From Emticicia sp. 21SJ11W-3 (GTDB lineage: Bacteria > Bacteroidota > Bacteroidia > Cytophagales > Spirosomataceae), in contig NZ_CP092074.1 in assembly GCF_024138715.1 (NCBI RefSeq), positions 3,100,001-3,164,000 of the forward strand: DNA of 64,000 nt. The letters run 5' to 3'. The position numbers were made by a program, and so were the translations under genes. How positions within the stretch are numbered: the stretch's first letter is position 1; every line of letters starts with the position of its first letter. This document shows, piece by piece, positions 27,747-35,695 of the stretch. The notes beneath the pieces are model-generated. The model worked only from the letters and a program-made list of their open reading frames with translations, had not been told where the DNA came from and made no database searches.

Positions 27747-28721
27747 TTAAGACATGGTTCTTCTTTCTGGCGGAATAAAGGTTTTGGTGGCGGCTGGTTC
27801 GCGGCGGAAAGGTGCGAGCTGGTCGGGAGTCTGGCTCAGGAAATCAAACAAAGCCATTGAAATGGCGTAATTCATCTTGGTATCAAAAAAATTGTAGCCG
27901 GGGGTGTTGTTAATTTCAAGCATCACCCATTCGCCGGTGGGTGTTACCTTAAAATCAATGCCTGCAAAGAGCAGTTCTTCTTCGCGGCAGTAATCAATAC
28001 ATTTTTTCAGTAAGTCTGGTGGAATGTCTACCCTTTGGTATTGATTGCCCGACGTACTGTAACGGTAGTCTACATTGGGCGACTCTATCTTAAGCCCCAG
28101 CGGCTGGCTGCCCAGCAGATGCAGGCGTACATCATACCCCCTGATGTGCCGCTGAAACAGCGACGGCACGTGGTTAAGCTGATACAATTCTGCATAGAGT
28201 TTTTCGTCCAGTTCTACAGCTCTGGTTCTGATAGATGACGTACCCTTCGAAATCCAGTCGCCGTTGGGTTGCATTACCTGCTTTGCCCGGGTGCCAGACC
28301 CGAAAATGTACGTTTCGGGCGTTGCGAAACCGTAGGCCTGTAGCTTGGTTACGTGGTGCAGCTTGGTGTAGTTTGAATTACCCGCGCAAGGCCGGTTAAC
28401 CACCACCTTGTCGCAGAATTCAAGATAATTATGCATCAGAAAAATAAAATTAACCATCCTCAGCACATGAGCTTTGTCGGCAGGCGTCTGATACAAACAC
28501 CGCGCATAAATAGCGTGGTAGTTGGCAAAATCAAATTGGCGGTCGTCTATTTTCACCAGCAGGTCATCGGCGTCATAAGACACCTGCACATCTGCGGCGG
28601 TTTCAACGTCTGACAGGTTCAGAAAATGATACTTATCAGCATCTGCCTGTTTTTGTTCGGCCAGCACTTTTACAAAATGCTCAATGGCTTTTTCGTTATG
28701 ATACCCTATTATTAAAAACAT
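27747..28721 (-). CDS. RimK/MvdD-like ATP-grasp ligase (graspetide-type)
   Basis: A 324-aa ATP-grasp enzyme. The N-terminal ~105 residues are a pre-ATP-grasp domain. NRPCAGNSNYTKL and a GFATPETYIF strand match the entry of MvdD-like ligases. Lys159 (WISKGTSS) is the nucleotide-binding lysine. Asp197/Arg199 (GYDVRLHLLG), KIES..DYR, Asp256 (AGIDF) and Glu269/Asn271 (MLEINNTPGYNFF) complete the ATP/Mg site. RimK, MvdC/MvdD and other graspetide synthetases activate carboxylates to form amide or ester links. Start is 2 bp after the stop of the degenerate partner, so the two are coupled. Four repeat-rich proteins lie upstream on the same strand, the likely substrates. No transporter or peptidase is seen nearby. 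Confidence 0.82.
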   Translation of the reverse strand: MFLIIGYHNEKAIEHFVKVLAEQKQADADKYHFLNLSDVETAADVQVSYDADDLLVKIDDRQFDFANYHAIYARCLYQTPADKAHVLRMVNFIFLMHNYLEFCDKVVVNRPCAGNSNYTKLHHVTKLQAYGFATPETYIFGSGTRAKQVMQPNGDWISKGTSSIRTRAVELDEKLYAELYQLNHVPSLFQRHIRGYDVRLHLLGSQPLGLKIESPNVDYRYSTSGNQYQRVDIPPDLLKKCIDYCREEELLFAGIDFKVTPTGEWVMLEINNTPGYNFFDTKMNYAISMALFDFLSQTPDQLAPFRREPAATKTFIPPERRTMS

Positions 28722-28723
28722 AA

Positions 28724-29425
28724 TCAGATTATTTCCTTTAATGCCCCGGCCAATATTCCGGAACTGACGTGCGCAAAACTTTCACTGATATTCAATACAC
28801 ACAGGTTGCTGTCTGTTACCACGCAGCTTACGGTCAGTATGTCCAGCCCGCGTTGCCACATGGCTTTCCGGGTTTTTAAAATAAGCTCTTCGGCATGGCT
28901 GATAACCGGGCTGAAAACATCATTGTCAGGATAAACCCTATACCCCGTACGTGTAAGCAGCAGGTGAATCTGATACAGCGTTTTATCTGGCAGGGCCTGC
29001 GGCAGATTAAAAAGCGACGGGTGCAACTGCCAGCCCAGGCTTCTGAACAGAAACACCAGAAAATACCTGTTAGTAATGCTCAGGCTCATGTTCAGCACCC
29101 CGGCATTAATCAGTTTATCGGGGTAGTTTTGCAGGGCAGATATCACCGAGGCATCCATCTCGCAATACTCAAACGTATGGGTTTTGTTGCTGGCTACGGC
29201 ATTGCCGATTTCGGGTACCGAGGGTGTGTTGATAAAAAAAATCCTGTCGAACCGGCTGATGTTCCAGTTAAAAAAACGGATGTCTGTGGTACCCAGGCTG
29301 TTGAGTTCTACCAGGCTGATATGCTCATGCCGGTGCACATCACAATAGTTAAGCCCCAGTTGCTCAAAGGCCTGCTTCACCTCTATGCCATCGGTGGCAT
29401 TGCGCCGTATTAACAATACATTCAT
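28724..29425 (-). CDS. Degenerate ATP-grasp-like partner protein
   Basis: A 233-aa protein from the chosen ATG (MNVLLIRRNATDGIEVKQ). The N-terminal half matches the pre-ATP-grasp fold of the downstream ligase: FDRIFFINTPSVPEIGN, then LINAGVLNMSLSITNRYFL. The end, LDILTVSCVVTDSNLCVLNISE, looks like the GIDF..TP.GEWVMLEINN strand pair with both metal residues lost. No lysine-bearing ATP-binding motif is seen. It is probably a catalytically dead relative that acts as substrate-recognition or regulatory subunit. An in-frame upstream ATG at 29527 would add 34 residues and overlap the previous stop; the internal start fits the fold better. Confidence 0.62.
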   Translation of the reverse strand: MNVLLIRRNATDGIEVKQAFEQLGLNYCDVHRHEHISLVELNSLGTTDIRFFNWNISRFDRIFFINTPSVPEIGNAVASNKTHTFEYCEMDASVISALQNYPDKLINAGVLNMSLSITNRYFLVFLFRSLGWQLHPSLFNLPQALPDKTLYQIHLLLTRTGYRVYPDNDVFSPVISHAEELILKTRKAMWQRGLDILTVSCVVTDSNLCVLNISESFAHVSSGILAGALKEII

Positions 29426-29488
29426 CTTTATTACCTCGGTTTTAGGTGTCAATAGCCCTTGTGTTGGTATGGGTTGACGTTTAAATAA

Positions 29489-29519
29489 CCGGCCGGTACC
29501 CAAGCTGAGTACCGACCGG
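29489..29519 (-). terminator. Hairpin between repeat-protein gene and ATP-grasp genes
   Basis: CCGGCCGGTAC (29489-29499) pairs with GTACCGACCGG (29509-29519) with one mismatch. It sits just past the 353-aa gene. It may terminate most transcripts so that substrates outnumber enzymes; the T run is short, so partial termination is likely. Confidence 0.55.
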
Positions 29520-29526
29520 AAATACA

Positions 29527-30588
29527 TTAAATTTTAAAAATACCGTCTATGGCATTTTTTGTGGCATCGGCCGCATCTTTAGCCGCGTTATCTGCCGAGT
29601 TCTTGGCCGAATCAGTGGCGTCTTTGGCTGCATCAGCCGCATCTTTGGCAGCTTTTTCTGCTTCGTCAGCCGCATCTTTGGCGCCATCGGCAGCATCTTT
29701 GGCCGCATCTTCTGTGGCTTTTATTCCTTCGTCGGCGGCATCTTTACCCGTATCGGTTGTTGCCTTAAGGGCATCGTCTGCCGCATCTTTGGTGGCGTCG
29801 GCGGCATCTTTGGCTGCCTGTACGGCATCGTTATAAATATCAACGGTGGTGTCTGCCACATCTTTGGCTGCCTCTTCGGTGGCAATAATGGCGTCTGTCA
29901 TCCAGTTGGTTGGGGGCTGGTCTGCCGTGGTACCCATAAAATTATAATCAATGGGCTGTGTGCTGCCATTCCATTTCTGCCCTATAAATATTAAATAGGG
30001 GTCTGCCACGCTGAAACTGATAATGGCGTTCTGGTCATTACCGCCGGTCTCAAACCACGAAACCTGAGAGGTTTGGGTAGTGGTGCCGTCTGAAAGCGTG
30101 CTGGTAAGTACCAGATACACATAATTGTTGATGTTTTTCGACTTATAGGTAATCGTTGGGCTGCTCACGGTAAGGGTGTCGTCTTGCTGATCCAGGCTTG
30201 TACCTACATAAGTATTGTATTTGGCGTTCCAGGCCGACACATCATTGCTTTGTGTGGCATACATACCCGTAAAATTATTGGCCGACGGCAGCGCGGCAGT
30301 ACCTGCAGCATATTTGCCGGTGGCTATCAGGCTGGCGGGCTGAAAATAAAACTTAAGCGCAGCAGACGATGCGTTGCCATCAGCAGCCTGCCAGCTGGCA
30401 TCAATTACCACTATTTCATCAGCTGATGTTTCGGTTAAAAACACCGGATTTTTGATGGTTTCGCCGTTCACCACAATGCTGAAACTAACAAAGTCAACCA
30501 TCAGGTAAGGGCCGCTGTAGTAGACTTTGGTTTCTAAATTTTGTAAATAAGTAATAAAATTGGCTTTGATTGAGGTATTAATTGCCAT
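29527..30588 (-). CDS. Repeat protein A: beta domain plus Lys/Asp/Ala-rich tail (putative ATP-grasp substrate)
   Basis: A 353-aa protein without a signal peptide. Residues 1-235 form a beta-rich domain also found in the next upstream gene (shared phrases SWQAADGNASSAAL, KSKNINNYVYL, QPIDYNF, NWMTDAI). The C-terminal ~115 residues are an Ala-rich helix of alternating 7- and 8-residue units such as KDAADAT, KDAADDAL. Each of the 14 repeat-region lysines has Asp four residues later (KDAAD, KATTD, KNSAD, KNAID). The downstream neighbours are the degenerate and active ATP-grasp proteins. Alternative reading: a LEA-like stress-protective helix or a coiled coil with salt bridges. Confidence 0.8.
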   Translation of the reverse strand: MAINTSIKANFITYLQNLETKVYYSGPYLMVDFVSFSIVVNGETIKNPVFLTETSADEIVVIDASWQAADGNASSAALKFYFQPASLIATGKYAAGTAALPSANNFTGMYATQSNDVSAWNAKYNTYVGTSLDQQDDTLTVSSPTITYKSKNINNYVYLVLTSTLSDGTTTQTSQVSWFETGGNDQNAIISFSVADPYLIFIGQKWNGSTQPIDYNFMGTTADQPPTNWMTDAIIATEEAAKDVADTTVDIYNDAVQAAKDAADATKDAADDALKATTDTGKDAADEGIKATEDAAKDAADGAKDAADEAEKAAKDAADAAKDATDSAKNSADNAAKDAADATKNAIDGIFKI

Positions 30589-30844
30589 GGCTTTAAATGT
30601 TTAATTGTTTATAATAATTGAATTGAATGTTGCGCTACCAAATAAAAATTACCACCAAAAGCATAGGGCTTAACGGGTAAATGAGCAGAAATACGCAAGC
30701 AGTTGACATAAGCAAAAGCGCTTTCCTGTGTATTAGCCCGGCAATGCGGCGGCCTTTAGCTGCCCTTATTACCATGGCTCAATAAAAAACGGGTTTAAAG
30801 AGGTTTCAGGCCGATGCGCTTAACGAGCATCGGCCTTTATCTAA
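30589..30844 (-). promoter_or_regulatory. Intergenic element and hairpin between repeat genes
   Basis: Contains a hairpin AGGCCGATGC / GCATCGGCCT (30808-30836) just past the 362-aa gene and, further on, a GCAGTTGACATAAGCAAAAG element (30699-30718) that recurs in altered form at 32041-32068 ahead of the 362-aa gene. The pair may be promoter elements of the two paralogues. Confidence 0.45.
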
Positions 30845-31933
30845 TTAAATCTTTGGTATTTTGGGTACTTTAGGTATGGGTGGCGGCGGCGGTATTGGAA
30901 TACTGTCAGCCGCATTTTTAGCTGCATCGGCGGCATCTTTGGCGGCTTTTTCAGCTGCGTCAGCCGCATCCTTGGCAGCATCAGTAGATGCTTTTATGGC
31001 TGCATCGGCGGCATCTTTAGCCGCATCTGTCGATGCCTTTATGGCCGCATCGGTAGCATCCTTGGCAGCATCTGTGGCATCTTTGGCAGCATCTGTGGTG
31101 GCTTTAACGGCATCATCAGCCGCATTTTTGGCGGTATCGGTGGCCACTTTGGCTGCATTCCGGGCATCGTTGTAGGCGTCAACGGCAGTGTCTGTTACCT
31201 CTTTAGCGGCGTATTCAGCCTCAAGAATAAGATCACTCATCCAGTTTGAAGGGAGTTCCTGCGCAATAGAACCCGAAAAGTTGTATTCCAGCGGTTGTAC
31301 ATGGCCCGTCCAGGTCTGCCCGACAAATGAATTTCCGTATTCAGTGCTGACGTAATAAAGATACGCGTTCTGCTTGTTATCGCCCGACTGAAACCACCAG
31401 GTCTGGTAGGTAGTGGTAGTAACGCCTTCGTCGTCGGTAAAGACCTGCGACAAATAAACGTGATTAAGGATGGTCTTAGACTTGTATCCCATGCCCGGGC
31501 CTTCTATCACCAGCACATCATCTGCCTTGTAGTCGGCGCCAATAAAAGTACTATAGGTGCCGTCCCACAGGCCAGACGGCGTTTCAGGATTGGCAATTAA
31601 GCCCGAAATATTATCAACCTCCGGCAATGGCGCGGCTCCTACGGCGTATTTACCACCCACAACCGACAAGCCTTCCATAAAATAAAACTCCAGCGCAGCC
31701 GACGAACCATTGCCATCGGAAGCCTGCCAGCTTACAGAAATCCAGACTAAGTCGGCAGTATCATAAACACTGGTAAAAGTGGGTTTAATAATGGCCTCAC
31801 CGTTGACATAAACCTGAGCATGGCCAAAGGAAACCATCACCAATGGCCCCGGATAATAGACCTCAGTATCGGTTACTGCAAGGTCCTGAATACTGGTTGG
31901 GAAAAATGAAGCAGCTTGAATAACAATTGCCAT
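30845..31933 (-). CDS. Repeat protein B, paralogue of A (putative ATP-grasp substrate)
   Basis: A 362-aa protein, same architecture as the 353-aa gene. The beta domain runs to about residue 240 (SWQASDGNGSSAALEFYF, KSKTILNHVYL, QPLEYNFSG, NWMSDLI). The tail has 13 repeat-region lysines, all with Asp at i+4, and the unit KDAADAAIKASTDAA (15 residues) recurs. It ends in a Pro-rich stretch (IPIPPPPPIPKVPKIPKI) missing from its paralogue. No signal peptide. Probably cytoplasmic or exported by an unseen route. Confidence 0.8.
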   Translation of the reverse strand: MAIVIQAASFFPTSIQDLAVTDTEVYYPGPLVMVSFGHAQVYVNGEAIIKPTFTSVYDTADLVWISVSWQASDGNGSSAALEFYFMEGLSVVGGKYAVGAAPLPEVDNISGLIANPETPSGLWDGTYSTFIGADYKADDVLVIEGPGMGYKSKTILNHVYLSQVFTDDEGVTTTTYQTWWFQSGDNKQNAYLYYVSTEYGNSFVGQTWTGHVQPLEYNFSGSIAQELPSNWMSDLILEAEYAAKEVTDTAVDAYNDARNAAKVATDTAKNAADDAVKATTDAAKDATDAAKDATDAAIKASTDAAKDAADAAIKASTDAAKDAADAAEKAAKDAADAAKNAADSIPIPPPPPIPKVPKIPKI

Positions 31934-32247
31934 AACGGGTAATGTTTAGATTTTAATAATTGAACAGAAATAAGTTTTACAGCAGTGTTTGAACCACACC
32001 TCAGGAACTGTTCGGTTCCCGGTGTACATGTAAAAGCACAGCAAAGCAGTTGACAAGAGCAAAAATTGTTTTCATATTAGTTTTTTGGGTATTGTTGCAC
32101 AGCTAATGGTTAACCTGCCCGCATAAGGCCACACAGGCCGGGTTATTACAGAATAAGGGCATCTGTCACCGTTTGTTTCTTTGCCGGGTATGCTACAATT
32201 GGGGCAACGTTTACCACCGGGGTGGCTGCCCCGATAGCTTTTCCGGC
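31934..32247 (-). other. Intergenic region upstream of repeat protein B
   Basis: About 310 bp without a gene. It carries the GCAAAGCAGTTGACAAGAGC element (32041-32060), related to the one upstream of repeat protein A, and presumably the promoter of the 362-aa gene. Confidence 0.45.
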
Positions 32248-32695
32248 TTAGTAGCCGCCTGCATTTCTGAGTGAATCTTGCGCCTCTTTCATGGCCTTCT
32301 CTAAATATTCGTTTGCATCACTCATCGCTTTTTGGGCTTCATCCAAAGCGTTTTTACGGGGCTTTGCTGGTATTGGCAGTGGTATGCCTGCATCCTGATC
32401 GGCTGTTCTCATGGCATTTTCGGCTTCATCCATCGTATTTTTGCCAGGATCTCCTGCTTCATTCAGGGGGGTTGCCTGTAACATTGAGTGATGCCCTGAT
32501 CGCATTTTCGGCTTCAGCCATTGCTTGTTTTATGGCATTATCTGCTTCACTTAAGGCATTTTTACTGGCGTTTATGGATGCCAGGTTCGCATTATTAGCT
32601 TCATCCATGGCGTTTTTGACTGCATTTTTGGCTTCTTTGGCAGCGTTGTTTATCGCCTCTCTGGCTGCATTGGCAGCATTGTCGGTTTCTTTCAT
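32248..32695 (-). pseudogene. Repeat protein C, split by a C6 homopolymer frameshift
   Basis: Two ORFs, 32459-32695 and 32248-32505, together read as one ~149-aa repeat protein if a single C is removed from the C6 run (G6 at 32466-32471 on the plus strand): the 5' part ends AIRASLNVTGNPPE, while the joined frame continues PLNEAGDPGK. The protein is almost all helical (KNAMDEA, KNTMDEA, KNALDEA), with looser spacing than its neighbours and Asn/Met in the units. It may be a true pseudogene, a phase-variable gene or a sequencing error. It lies between the 987-aa and 362-aa genes in the same orientation. Confidence 0.65.
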
Positions 32696-32731
32696 ATAAG
32701 TAAATATAGTTTTGTATTGAAAATCAGGTAA

Positions 32732-35695
32732 CTACGGAATAATAGCATCCGCCGCCGACTTCAATGCCGAGTCGGTGGCATTTTTGGCGCTGTCGGTAGC
32801 GTTTTTGGCCGCATCTGCTGCATCTTTAGCTGCCTTCGCGGCTTCGTCGGCGGCATCTTTGGCCGCATCTGCTGCATCTTTGGCCGCATCTTCTGATGCC
32901 TTCAATGCACTGTCTGCCGCATCTTTGGCCGCATCAGCTGCGTCTTTGGCTGCCTTTTCTGCCTCGTCGGCCGCATCTTTGGCGGCATCTTCAGTCTCTT
33001 TTATTGCACTGTCTGCCGCATCTTTGGTGCTGTCGGTGGCTTGTTTCAGGGCATCATCGGCCGCATTTTTGGTGGCGTCGGCTGCATCTTTGGCAGTTTT
33101 TTCTACCCAGTTGCCTGCGGTGTCAATGGCGTAGCCCAGCTCTGCCATTATGGCGGCCACTTCTGCTTCGGTGGCATTAAATGCCTCAGTAAGCGCCTGC
33201 GCCACTACATCGGCACTGTAGCCAAGGGCCAGCAGTATTTCACCCACTACCTCCATGGTACTGCCATATACATTGACAAGGGCGTCGGCTATTTCGTCGG
33301 CCGTGTAGCCTGCGTATTGCAGGGCGGCGGCGGCGCTGTCTTCTGCGGCATTGTAGGCTGTTACCAGGGTCTGGGTTGTGAGGGTCGACGTAGCGTTGTA
33401 AACGTCTTTCATGCCTTTGGCTACGTCGTTCAGGGCATAGGTGGTGCCTTTCAGCAGGTCGCCAACGGCTTCCGCACTTACCCCATACACTACCTTAAAG
33501 CCTTCTATTACATATTCGGCAGTGTTGGTGGCCAGCACAATTACCCCCTGCGTTACGGCGTTTATCCAGGCGGCGGCATCGGCATACAGATTTTTGAAAA
33601 GCGTAGAAACATTATCGATAATCCATTGATTGGCCATATTGATGATGTCTTGCAGGCTTTGGGTGTTGATATCCAGCGACAGTTCAGGGATATGGTAATG
33701 GTACCCGGCGAAATCGAAACTGCCTGCATAAGTAAAACGTATGACATTGGCGCTGGTATCAATCGTGAGTTCGCTGCTAATGGTTGATACAAAATGAATG
33801 CTGCCCAGATTAAACACATCAACCGAATCGGGAATCTGAATCATAAAATCGGCGCCATAAGTAAACGAGCCTGAAAAATACTGGTAGCTTTTTAGCACAC
33901 AAGCCATTCTTGTGGTGAGCACAGATTCAAAATCAAGCTCGAAACTGAATCCATTACTGGTAACCGACGCCTCAACCGATTGCCGGCTGTCCAGAAACGC
34001 AATGGCAATACTGGCTACAAAGTATGGCGATGCAAACGTGCTTACCTCCATAACCGGCCCGCCTGCTTTAATAATTACCTCGGTGCCGGCGTTTTCAATA
34101 GCTATTTCTTCGGCTGATGTTTCTGGCACCACATTGTTGCTGATGGGGTCTCCGGCCTCATTTACTTTTATGCTGATGGCCTGCCCGTTGCCTTTCAGGC
34201 TTAGTGGCCCAAGTTCATACGGCGACATGGTGATGATGCCGTTGATACCCGAAACAGGGTTGATGTCGAGGTCGCCATAGAAACCGAGCCCGAAGAAATC
34301 AAGATACCCGCTGAAACCAAACTCATATTTAGAAGTAGAGCCGTCTGGCAGTACCACCGGCTGGGTGGGGTTCTCCTGCCATACGAAAGACAGGTTTTTT
34401 ACCGATACCGGAAAATCAATATTGAAATCGACGTCGGTAAAAATGGTTACCAGTTCGTTGAGGCTTATTTGTGATACATAAAAAGATATATAGAGCGGGT
34501 TCGGGATATCGCCGATTAACGCACAAACCACCGCAAAGCTGTTGTCTTCTACCAGTACGTTGTCTTCCGGCTTACCAATGGTAAACGACCCCTGCACGCC
34601 CAGCGAATACCCGATAATCGGCTGGAAAAACACACCCATGCCCACGCCGAATGAGGTAAAATGAACCCCCTGAATAATAGGCGGCGTAAGTAGCACAGAA
34701 TTATCGCCTCTGATAACCACACCGATATTGGCCTGGTCTGCACCGATTACCATCGATAAATCGGCATAGAAAGTTGGGTTGCTCCAGAGCTTGAATGGAA
34801 TGGTGGCCTGCGCCATAAAGCCAACCTCGCCACTTTGCGGCGACAACGAAAAAGTAATGGCCGGATTACTGAGTGTTATATCTGTATTGGCCGCAACGGG
34901 TATCCTGATGGCATCAAGGCTGAAAGTGAGGGCAACCGTTACCAGATCCGGCGTTAAGGTATAACTGAAACTGATATTGACATGCACCACCTTTACGCTG
35001 TTAAAAGGCGTAATGGTAAATATATTGGCGGCTATCTGGCTGCCGAAATATATATCTTCCATGTTTACATCACAGCTCAGGCTAACCAGGTTGCCGTTGC
35101 CATTCAGGGTGGTGCAGGTAAAACTACTGACGGGGAAATCGGGCAAGAGCGAGGGCCATTTAACACCCATATAGCCAATCAGGCTTTTCAGGCTGTAAGC
35201 GGTATCGGCCGGAGACGTACCTGAATCGGCCGATAAAGCCGCCAGCACCAGTATATACGACACATACGTGCAGGCCTGATAATTGGCGGTACCTTCATAA
35301 AAGGCATCTATCTGGTCGGGGGTGGCGTTGCCTCCTTCCGTAAGTTTTGCAAAGCTGACCGACAGCGCGTCGTTGGGGTTAGCGGCAATAAAGGCAAAGA
35401 AACTATAATTACTGGCTATTATATCTGCATCGGCCGTGGTAATGGTAAAACCCTGCTGGCTGCTGCCGCCTTCATATACCATTCGTTTTACGGGTTTGTT
35501 CTGGTTGTCGTAGCAGATATAAACCGAGGTGAGGTCTGCCTGTTGACTGATAGCCAGCGTGGCTGAAGGTTCAATATGCCCCACAAAGCTGAGCCTGGCA
35601 ATGTAATTGGGCTGGCCTGCGCTGGTGTCGTCAGTCGACAAATAGATACTAACCCCGGAAGAGAGGTCGTTTTTAAAACTGATAGAGTTTATCAT
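32732..35695 (-). CDS. Repeat protein D: large beta protein with Lys/Asp/Ala-rich tail
   Basis: A 987-aa protein, no signal peptide. Residues ~1-680 are beta-rich and not recognised (Ser/Thr/Val-rich, SFKNDLSSGVSIYLSTDD at the start). Residues ~690-860 are helical, with several Tyr/Ala hairpins (AALQYAGYTADEIADALV, LALGYSADVVAQALTEAF). The last ~125 residues are the same Lys/Asp/Ala repeat as in the downstream genes; all 18 lysines here carry Asp at i+4. The N-terminal part is unrelated to repeat proteins A and B, so the tail looks like a portable module. It heads the cluster; a hairpin with a T run lies just upstream. Confidence 0.75.
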   Translation of the reverse strand: MINSISFKNDLSSGVSIYLSTDDTSAGQPNYIARLSFVGHIEPSATLAISQQADLTSVYICYDNQNKPVKRMVYEGGSSQQGFTITTADADIIASNYSFFAFIAANPNDALSVSFAKLTEGGNATPDQIDAFYEGTANYQACTYVSYILVLAALSADSGTSPADTAYSLKSLIGYMGVKWPSLLPDFPVSSFTCTTLNGNGNLVSLSCDVNMEDIYFGSQIAANIFTITPFNSVKVVHVNISFSYTLTPDLVTVALTFSLDAIRIPVAANTDITLSNPAITFSLSPQSGEVGFMAQATIPFKLWSNPTFYADLSMVIGADQANIGVVIRGDNSVLLTPPIIQGVHFTSFGVGMGVFFQPIIGYSLGVQGSFTIGKPEDNVLVEDNSFAVVCALIGDIPNPLYISFYVSQISLNELVTIFTDVDFNIDFPVSVKNLSFVWQENPTQPVVLPDGSTSKYEFGFSGYLDFFGLGFYGDLDINPVSGINGIITMSPYELGPLSLKGNGQAISIKVNEAGDPISNNVVPETSAEEIAIENAGTEVIIKAGGPVMEVSTFASPYFVASIAIAFLDSRQSVEASVTSNGFSFELDFESVLTTRMACVLKSYQYFSGSFTYGADFMIQIPDSVDVFNLGSIHFVSTISSELTIDTSANVIRFTYAGSFDFAGYHYHIPELSLDINTQSLQDIINMANQWIIDNVSTLFKNLYADAAAWINAVTQGVIVLATNTAEYVIEGFKVVYGVSAEAVGDLLKGTTYALNDVAKGMKDVYNATSTLTTQTLVTAYNAAEDSAAAALQYAGYTADEIADALVNVYGSTMEVVGEILLALGYSADVVAQALTEAFNATEAEVAAIMAELGYAIDTAGNWVEKTAKDAADATKNAADDALKQATDSTKDAADSAIKETEDAAKDAADEAEKAAKDAADAAKDAADSALKASEDAAKDAADAAKDAADEAAKAAKDAADAAKNATDSAKNATDSALKSAADAIIP

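Follow-up and report, generated by a model that had tools for sequence, protein, structure and literature searches.

The precursors of microviridin and plesiocin are short peptides with leaders. Unlike them, the candidate substrates described here are proteins of 353–987 aa, encoded on the minus strand (27747–35695) of a 64,000-nucleotide stretch of the genome of Emticicia sp. 21SJ11W-3 (contig NZ_CP092074.1, positions 3,100,001 to 3,164,000), which we call the window. The locus opens with a 987-aa open reading frame (ORF) and a broken small gene, which are followed by ORFs of 362 and 353 aa and then by those of a partner protein and an ATP-grasp ligase. Enzymes of this ligase's family are known to cross-link side chains within peptides. 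We think it fairly probable that this graspetide-type ligase, together with its dead partner, installs numerous Lys(i)–Asp(i+4) lactams in the helical tails of the three full-size proteins.

A described system with several of these features is corallotide (graspetide group 15). Its ligase CorB, a TIGR04187 enzyme, makes intramolecular Lys–Asp isopeptides at KxxxD in CorA, a precursor of ~22 kDa with five sites, and its helper is a 2-oxoglutarate (2OG) oxygenase that also hydroxylates Lys (PMC13097080). The sections of that paper cited here (Carter et al. 2026) also report that partner proteins can be required in graspetide systems, and they list group 32 with diverse proteases and groups 34 and 35 with long repeat precursors. 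The window shares with corallotide a TIGR04187-type ligase, a large precursor with an N-terminal domain, repeated KxxxD, and a helper protein. It differs in having 45 candidate sites on three proteins and a dead ATP-grasp as the helper. No 2OG oxygenase or beta-lactamase scored above the cut-off in the ten window proteins scanned (five from the locus and five flanking it), and the 987-aa protein holds a sub-threshold 2OG match (E 0.085).

The second point of comparison is a survey of ATP-grasp enzymes. In the passages of Makarova et al. 2022 (PMC8939145) used here, no precursor was predictable for branches 7 and 8, the initial precursor candidates being proteins of 150 aa or less. These passages note peptidases of unrelated families, suggested to cut other proteins, and a truncated inactive ATP-grasp in branch 8 loci. 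So described, branch 8 and the window both have an active and a truncated inactive ATP-grasp in one locus and no small precursor. Branch 8 loci hold mostly peptidases, whereas none of the ten scanned window proteins has a peptidase domain.

Lysine–aspartate pairing in the tails

The 987-, 362- and 353-aa proteins end in Ala/Lys/Asp-rich tails of 123, 121 and 114 aa, respectively. When the three intact tails are pooled, Asp is found at +4 in 45 of the 47 lysines that have a +4 residue, and both exceptions sit in the Pro/Lys end of the 362-aa protein. Elsewhere after tail lysines, Asp occurs at +1 in 22/49 cases and never at +2 (0/47) or +3 (0/47). Composition-preserving shuffles (n = 5000) gave a mean of 9.2 Lys–Asp pairs at +4, with a maximum of 18, and among ten control ORFs with Ala/Lys/Asp-rich stretches, a small control, the best +4 fraction was 1/9. 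The residues between Lys and Asp vary from unit to unit (KDAAD 18 times, KAAKD four, KNAAD and KDATD three each, and others). The eighteen KDAAD units are written in twelve DNA spellings, so the pattern seems to be kept at the protein level and not to reflect recent duplication.

Lysines in the tails are spaced 7 and 8 residues apart. On a model helix the paired lysines fall on one face at 97.75–98.75 degrees per residue, with a resultant of 0.79–0.85; in the random-set comparison, 99 per cent of values lay below 0.60–0.71. All three tails have this pattern and facing in common. Repeated nucleophile/carboxylate pairs at fixed spacing, a trait of graspetide precursors, are therefore present in the tails, and the other trait of such precursors, a short peptide with a leader, is absent.

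Used as a query, the tail matched only this locus within its own genome; of 296 genomes from the phylum, three gave a match, one of them its own. In the best-matching ORFs of the other two, Asp stood at +4 in 1/12 and 3/17 lysines of the last 110 aa. A BLAST search of plasmids, run with the low-complexity filter on, gave no match, and a literature search on KARAD returned nothing usable.

The ATP-grasp ligase

Among NCBIfam models the ligase matched TIGR04187 first (E 9e-22), followed by the MvdC and MvdD models; Pfam gave ATP-grasp matches that were all sub-threshold. The PDB sequences found at E < 0.01 were five graspetide-type ATP-grasp ligases, namely PsnB, PruB, AMdnB, MdnB, and MdnC. Residues D256, E269, N271 and the D-x-R pair (D218-Y-R220), which we take to be a hallmark of graspetide synthetases, are invariant across ten aligned sequences, and the metal/ATP residues of graspetide synthetases are kept. 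The window is like the microviridin and plesiocin synthetases (MdnB/MdnC, PsnB) in the sequence match and the catalytic residues of the ligase, as well as in the modelled fold of the partner (see below).

Matches to the ligase are few. Its own genome holds one at E 0.001. Across 150 family genomes thirteen have a match at 1e-5, and across 395 phylum genomes three do at 1e-15, the own genome being included in both counts.

Relatives of the ligase

We collected relatives by scanning a collection of genome contigs and kept the best 80 of 169 (L035–L114); a first scan of this collection with a single-protein query had given no match. Many of the eighty are metagenome bins, four were already in the query alignment (Rudanella, two Fibrisoma, and Fibrella), and two (L045 and L046) look like one contig placed in two bins. 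Their titles name Bacteroidetes families, Acidobacteria, Cyanobacteria, Actinomycetes, Proteobacteria, Nitrospira, and Gemmatimonadetes, and further Dehalococcoidia, myxobacteria, Opitutaceae, WOR-3, and an archaeal bin.

All eighty have a homologue of the partner beside the ligase (E < 0.001), and the gene order of this clade is tail protein, partner, ligase, as in the window. Near its end, the upstream protein has a zone rich in Lys, Asp, and Glu and at least 25 aa long in 72 of the 80 relatives, compared with 2 of 630 other ORFs of these loci (the zone is missing in L045, L046, L068, L083, L084, L108, L091, and L107). The zone precedes FIxxxxRP, a motif at the C-terminus that often has DL after it and is present in 77 of the 80 upstream proteins; L083, L091, and L107 are the exceptions, and L107 has the motif in a downstream protein. 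A pattern match in L083, which had brought this count to 78, was spurious. Under a stricter criterion, by which 24 residues in a stretch of 40 had to be K, D or E, a tail lay nearby in 49 of the 80, against one control match in 2.18 Mb of other strand sequence. That match (L078) may itself be a real tail, with the motif on the other strand there. Two of the forty-nine lie downstream, one without the motif and perhaps unrelated (L094) and one with it (L107).

The relatives' tails are long and repetitive and sit on unrelated bodies. Ten of the tail proteins were scanned and comprised three subtilases, one M6 peptidase, one DUF6519 protein, one Ig-like protein, and four without a match; in its lack of peptidase domains the window differs from these relatives. 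The clade is like the window in gene order and in its Lys/acid-rich tails. It differs in that its tails are mostly K-[D/E]-x and end in FIxxxxRP, whereas those of the window are K-x-x-x-D and have no such end.

Two trees were built, the first with 35 rows and the second with 28, without Megaera and some other rows. In both, the window ligase lies on the partner-bearing clade's side of a 100/100 split from the tgmB- and astacin-type rows, but on a very long branch with no supported place inside the clade. The window and the Megaera sequence (L034) may group as long branches in the first tree; in the second, from which L034 was omitted, the window remains separate from the tgmB/astacin rows.

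By description, though not by accessions, the clade fits branch 8 as portrayed in the cited passages of PMC8939145. Judging from the sequences of these loci, the tails of L035–L114 are likely to be the substrates of this published precursor-less branch, and we propose the tails of branch 8-type peptidases as its missing substrates. At the level of titles and the opening lines of abstracts we found no description of such tails or of the FIxxxxRP motif; the supplements of PMC13097080 may already note the tails.

The ligase of the window ends in FIPPERR, which we considered as a recognition motif by comparison with FIxPEERP of the clade. It was dropped because its 2.0 bits by a clade-only matrix fall below at least 422 of 2,007,534 background positions; the six-frame translation of the window (122,063 residues) contains a single instance of the pattern F[IVL].PE.R.

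Several other arrangements were seen around ligases of this kind. In Fibrella (L024:10748–13477) a single ORF covers an M6-type tail protein together with the degenerate ATP-grasp partner. A Rickettsiales plasmid of Candidatus Megaera (L034:7405–10905) has a tiny Lys/Asp ORF, then a 41-aa ORF with FISFDLRPDL, followed by the ligase, a protein that is partner-like by eye, and two annotated dioxygenases. The ligase gene of L007/L026 (G139) contains an internal TAG. In five loci (L022, L039, L074, L084, and L089) a small protein of 91–98 aa with a similar, IEN-W-like start lies 3' of the ligase. Lastly, L028 and L029 have a more distant ATP-grasp by a protein that is astacin-like by eye and has KEVxKDPIxDP repeats, and no partner was seen at these two loci.

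The degenerate partner

The metal/ATP residues that the ligase carries could not be recognized by eye in the window partner. A profile of the clade's partners aligns with the ligase profile over nearly its full length (probability 98, E 1.8e-13), which identifies the clade's partner as a degenerate ATP-grasp, and a seven-sequence profile that includes the window partner reached a probability of 92 against the ligase profile. The predicted structure of the window partner (pLDDT 75, pTM 0.72) has MdnB, MdnC, and PsnB as its nearest matches (best E 2.8e-6). A degenerate ATP-grasp adjoining the ligase, the trait of the clade, is thus found in the window by position and predicted fold, with a weak match in sequence.

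Proposed mechanism and alternatives

In the mechanism we propose, each of the 353-, 362- and 987-aa proteins would consist of a folded body and an Ala/Lys/Asp tail (114–123 residues) that is interchangeable among them. The dead partner and the ligase would bind the tail, the ligase would activate an Asp carboxylate with ATP by phosphorylating the Asp, and the Lys four residues before it would attack, once per unit. This could give up to 14 lactams in the tail of the 353-aa protein, 13 in that of the 362-aa protein, and 18 in that of the 987-aa protein. Lys-to-Asp lactams at i,i+4 stabilize helices in the work described in the cited parts of PMC10778704 and PMC12729524, and, since the paired lysines lie on one helix face (~98 degrees per residue), the product may be a folded head bearing a rigid, stapled rod.

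That the ATP-grasp modifies the repeat tails had been suggested in an earlier note on this DNA, and the pairing, the enzyme family, the KxxxD precedent of CorB, and the tails of the relatives all point the same way. The note's RimK/MvdD-type ligase and degenerate partner, directly downstream and in the same orientation, are borne out by the ORFs, the family matches, and the partner model, and the search against graspetide synthetase families that it proposed gave the NCBIfam and PDB matches described above. Its expectation of K-x-x-x-D repeat proteins beside homologous enzymes held in part: among the best 80 of 169, a partner and, in most, a Lys/acid-rich zone are there, and the units are mostly K-[D/E]-x. 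The note had further called the system a candidate new one, which holds only in part: large repeat precursors and partner proteins are already listed among graspetides in the cited sections of PMC13097080. With these corrections, the sequence comparisons support a system that works like a graspetide system.

A bolder reading concerns the whole clade, and we would give it even odds. An active ATP-grasp and its dead twin would form a broad protein-modification system, as opposed to a pathway for peptide antibiotics, that adds chains of Lys–acid lactams to tag-like tails in at least ten phyla, its targets being subtilases, an M6 peptidase, Ig-like, DUF6519 and carrier-domain proteins. The tails would be the substrates that escaped the 2022 survey, and their purest form would be that of the window, with 13–18 staples per enzyme-made, lactam-stapled alpha-helix. 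If this holds, the helix stapling that peptide chemists do by hand is also carried out by bacteria, on full-size proteins, and a graspetide-type enzyme clade without assigned substrates gains an obvious candidate. There would also be a genetically encoded means to rigidify protein tails, and part of the graspetide family would move from small-molecule biosynthesis to protein modification.

Several observations weigh against the stapled-tail mechanism. Ala-rich, charged helices are known in which i,i+4 salt bridges form with no enzyme involved. The ligase scores 77.6 bits with TIGR04187, below the family cut-off of 350, and is 24–28 per cent identical to members of the partner-bearing clade; its branch is very long (3.1–3.8 changes per column), and its place inside the clade is unsupported. 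Lysines in the relatives' zones have D/E at +1 in 65 per cent of cases and at +4 in 43 per cent, and given this preference KxxxD is no rule of the clade and the strict +4 spacing is the window's own. FIxxxxRP was not found in the window's six frames (best 8.2 bits, against a training minimum of 19.1), for which reason the window is not to be filed in the FIxxxxRP clade. The window partner, though in register, barely matches the clade partner profile (hhalign probability 1.6), and the alignment behind its model contained clade relatives, which may have shaped the model. According to the cited sections of PMC13097080, the circular dichroism of CorA is unchanged by modification, and the full-length protein does not give a plain helical spectrum. 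Finally, a Herpetosiphon plasmid carries a tail-less homologue of the 987-aa body and, ~22 kb away, a tgmB-side ATP-grasp, so the presence of the body and of such an enzyme on one replicon does not entail this tail.

The strongest alternative, which we nevertheless regard as unlikely, is that the tails are plain salt-bridged charged helices of stress, ice or surface proteins and that the ATP-grasp pair acts elsewhere. Ala-rich tails with a 7-/8-residue Lys spacing do resemble helical repeat proteins, their i,i+4 pairs require no enzyme, and the scanned proteins gave weak sub-threshold matches to apolipoprotein-like and Ag473-like models. However, no LEA model matched the scanned proteins at E up to 1, and the near-complete pairing, which uses Asp and not Glu, is absent from the ten control ORFs of similar make-up. 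Moreover, the genes of the last substrate, the partner, and the ligase overlap or nearly touch (the stop of the 353-aa gene overlaps the next ATG as TAATG, and the partner–ligase gap is 2 bp), and tails beside the enzyme's relatives occur far above control.

Less probable again, to a degree that makes us doubt it strongly, are intermolecular links, in which the Lys of one tail would be joined to the Asp of a neighbour and the three proteins would form a covalent bundle or mesh. Such links would suit three proteins of one locus with the same tail pattern and facing, and the long, repetitive tails that the relatives carry on unrelated bodies. Yet the characterized KxxxD case is intramolecular in the cited sections of PMC13097080. 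Strict in-chain +4 spacing, too, is needed for an intramolecular bond only. A last reading, very improbable in our view, is that amino acids are appended by the ligase to the tails or to a protein C-terminus without internal cross-links, much as RimK-type ATP-grasps add glutamates. Weak matches of the ligase to the TIGR00768 and MptN models speak for it; the better scores of graspetide models and structures and the retained D-x-R pair speak against it.

Bodies carrying the tails

Under the preferred mechanism of lactams within each tail, the bodies would be the heads of stapled rods. The N-terminal domains of the 353- and 362-aa proteins are 43 per cent identical. Among 150 family genomes and 395 phylum genomes this domain was found only in the own genome, and viral contigs gave no match. 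A search of PDB sequences returned a sole match at E 0.42. AlphaFold2 models of two sequences of the domain had a pLDDT of 37 and were not used.

The domain was found on one plasmid, from Burkholderia arboris (33 per cent identity, E 7e-22). This homologue carries a TEVT-repeat tail, and 45 bp separate it from a preceding OphMA-like peptide N-methyltransferase (E 2e-87). The likeness of the window to borosins runs through this homologue, and no OphMA-like methyltransferase was found among the ten window proteins scanned. The single case hints that the N-terminal domain may serve as a carrier of tails for modifying enzymes of the kind that act on ribosomally synthesized and post-translationally modified peptides. 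On the plasmid (L018:8588–11576) the methyltransferase and the TEVT-tail protein are followed by a weakly PhyH-like oxygenase.

Most of the body of the 987-aa protein is matched by a homologue in one genome (G130, 33 per cent identity), and about a third of it by homologues in Hymenobacter and Herpetosiphon, all without this tail. A search of G130 for the ligase gave no match at E 0.01, an empty result to be taken with caution. From these few cases, the tail looks like a module that accompanies this enzyme.

Gene layout

Coordinates of the features are collected in Table 1. The earlier note had listed four same-strand repeat proteins of 149–987 aa with modular tails before the ATP-grasp pair. 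Three are intact and tailed; the fourth, the 149-aa protein, does not exist as a single frame.

Table 1. Features of the locus, with positions in the window.
Feature	Position	Strand	Remarks
987-aa protein with repeat tail	32732..35695	(-)	ORF; tail-less homologues of body parts in three other genomes
Tail of 987-aa protein	32744..33112	(-)	18 Lys, 18/18 with Asp at +4
Broken small repeat gene (149-aa protein of the earlier note)	32248..32695	(-)	Two overlapping frames
362-aa protein	30845..31933	(-)	N-terminal domain and tail
Tail of 362-aa protein	30848..31210	(-)	Asp at +4 for 13/16 Lys; then Pro/Lys end
353-aa protein	29527..30588	(-)	N-terminal domain and tail
Tail of 353-aa protein	29530..29871	(-)	Asp at +4 for 14/15 Lys; last Lys without a +4 residue
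Terminator-like hairpin	29489..29519	(-)	14 pairs, 9 GC; between last substrate gene and partner
Degenerate ATP-grasp partner, 233 aa	28724..29425	(-)	Longest ORF 267 aa, 28724–29527; 233 aa from later start
ATP-grasp ligase, graspetide-synthetase type, 324 aa	27747..28721	(-)	Catalytic residues conserved

The broken gene (32695–32248) reads for 78 codons to a TGA and is overlapped by an 85-aa frame; a frame change near a run of six Cs (32471–32466) is needed to join the two. It is a pseudogene, a frameshifted gene, a phase-variable switch, or the site of a sequencing or assembly error. The hairpin might hold the level of the enzymes below that of the substrates, which is only suggestive because it rests on a consensus match and the region has nineteen such sites, against 12.2 in shuffles.

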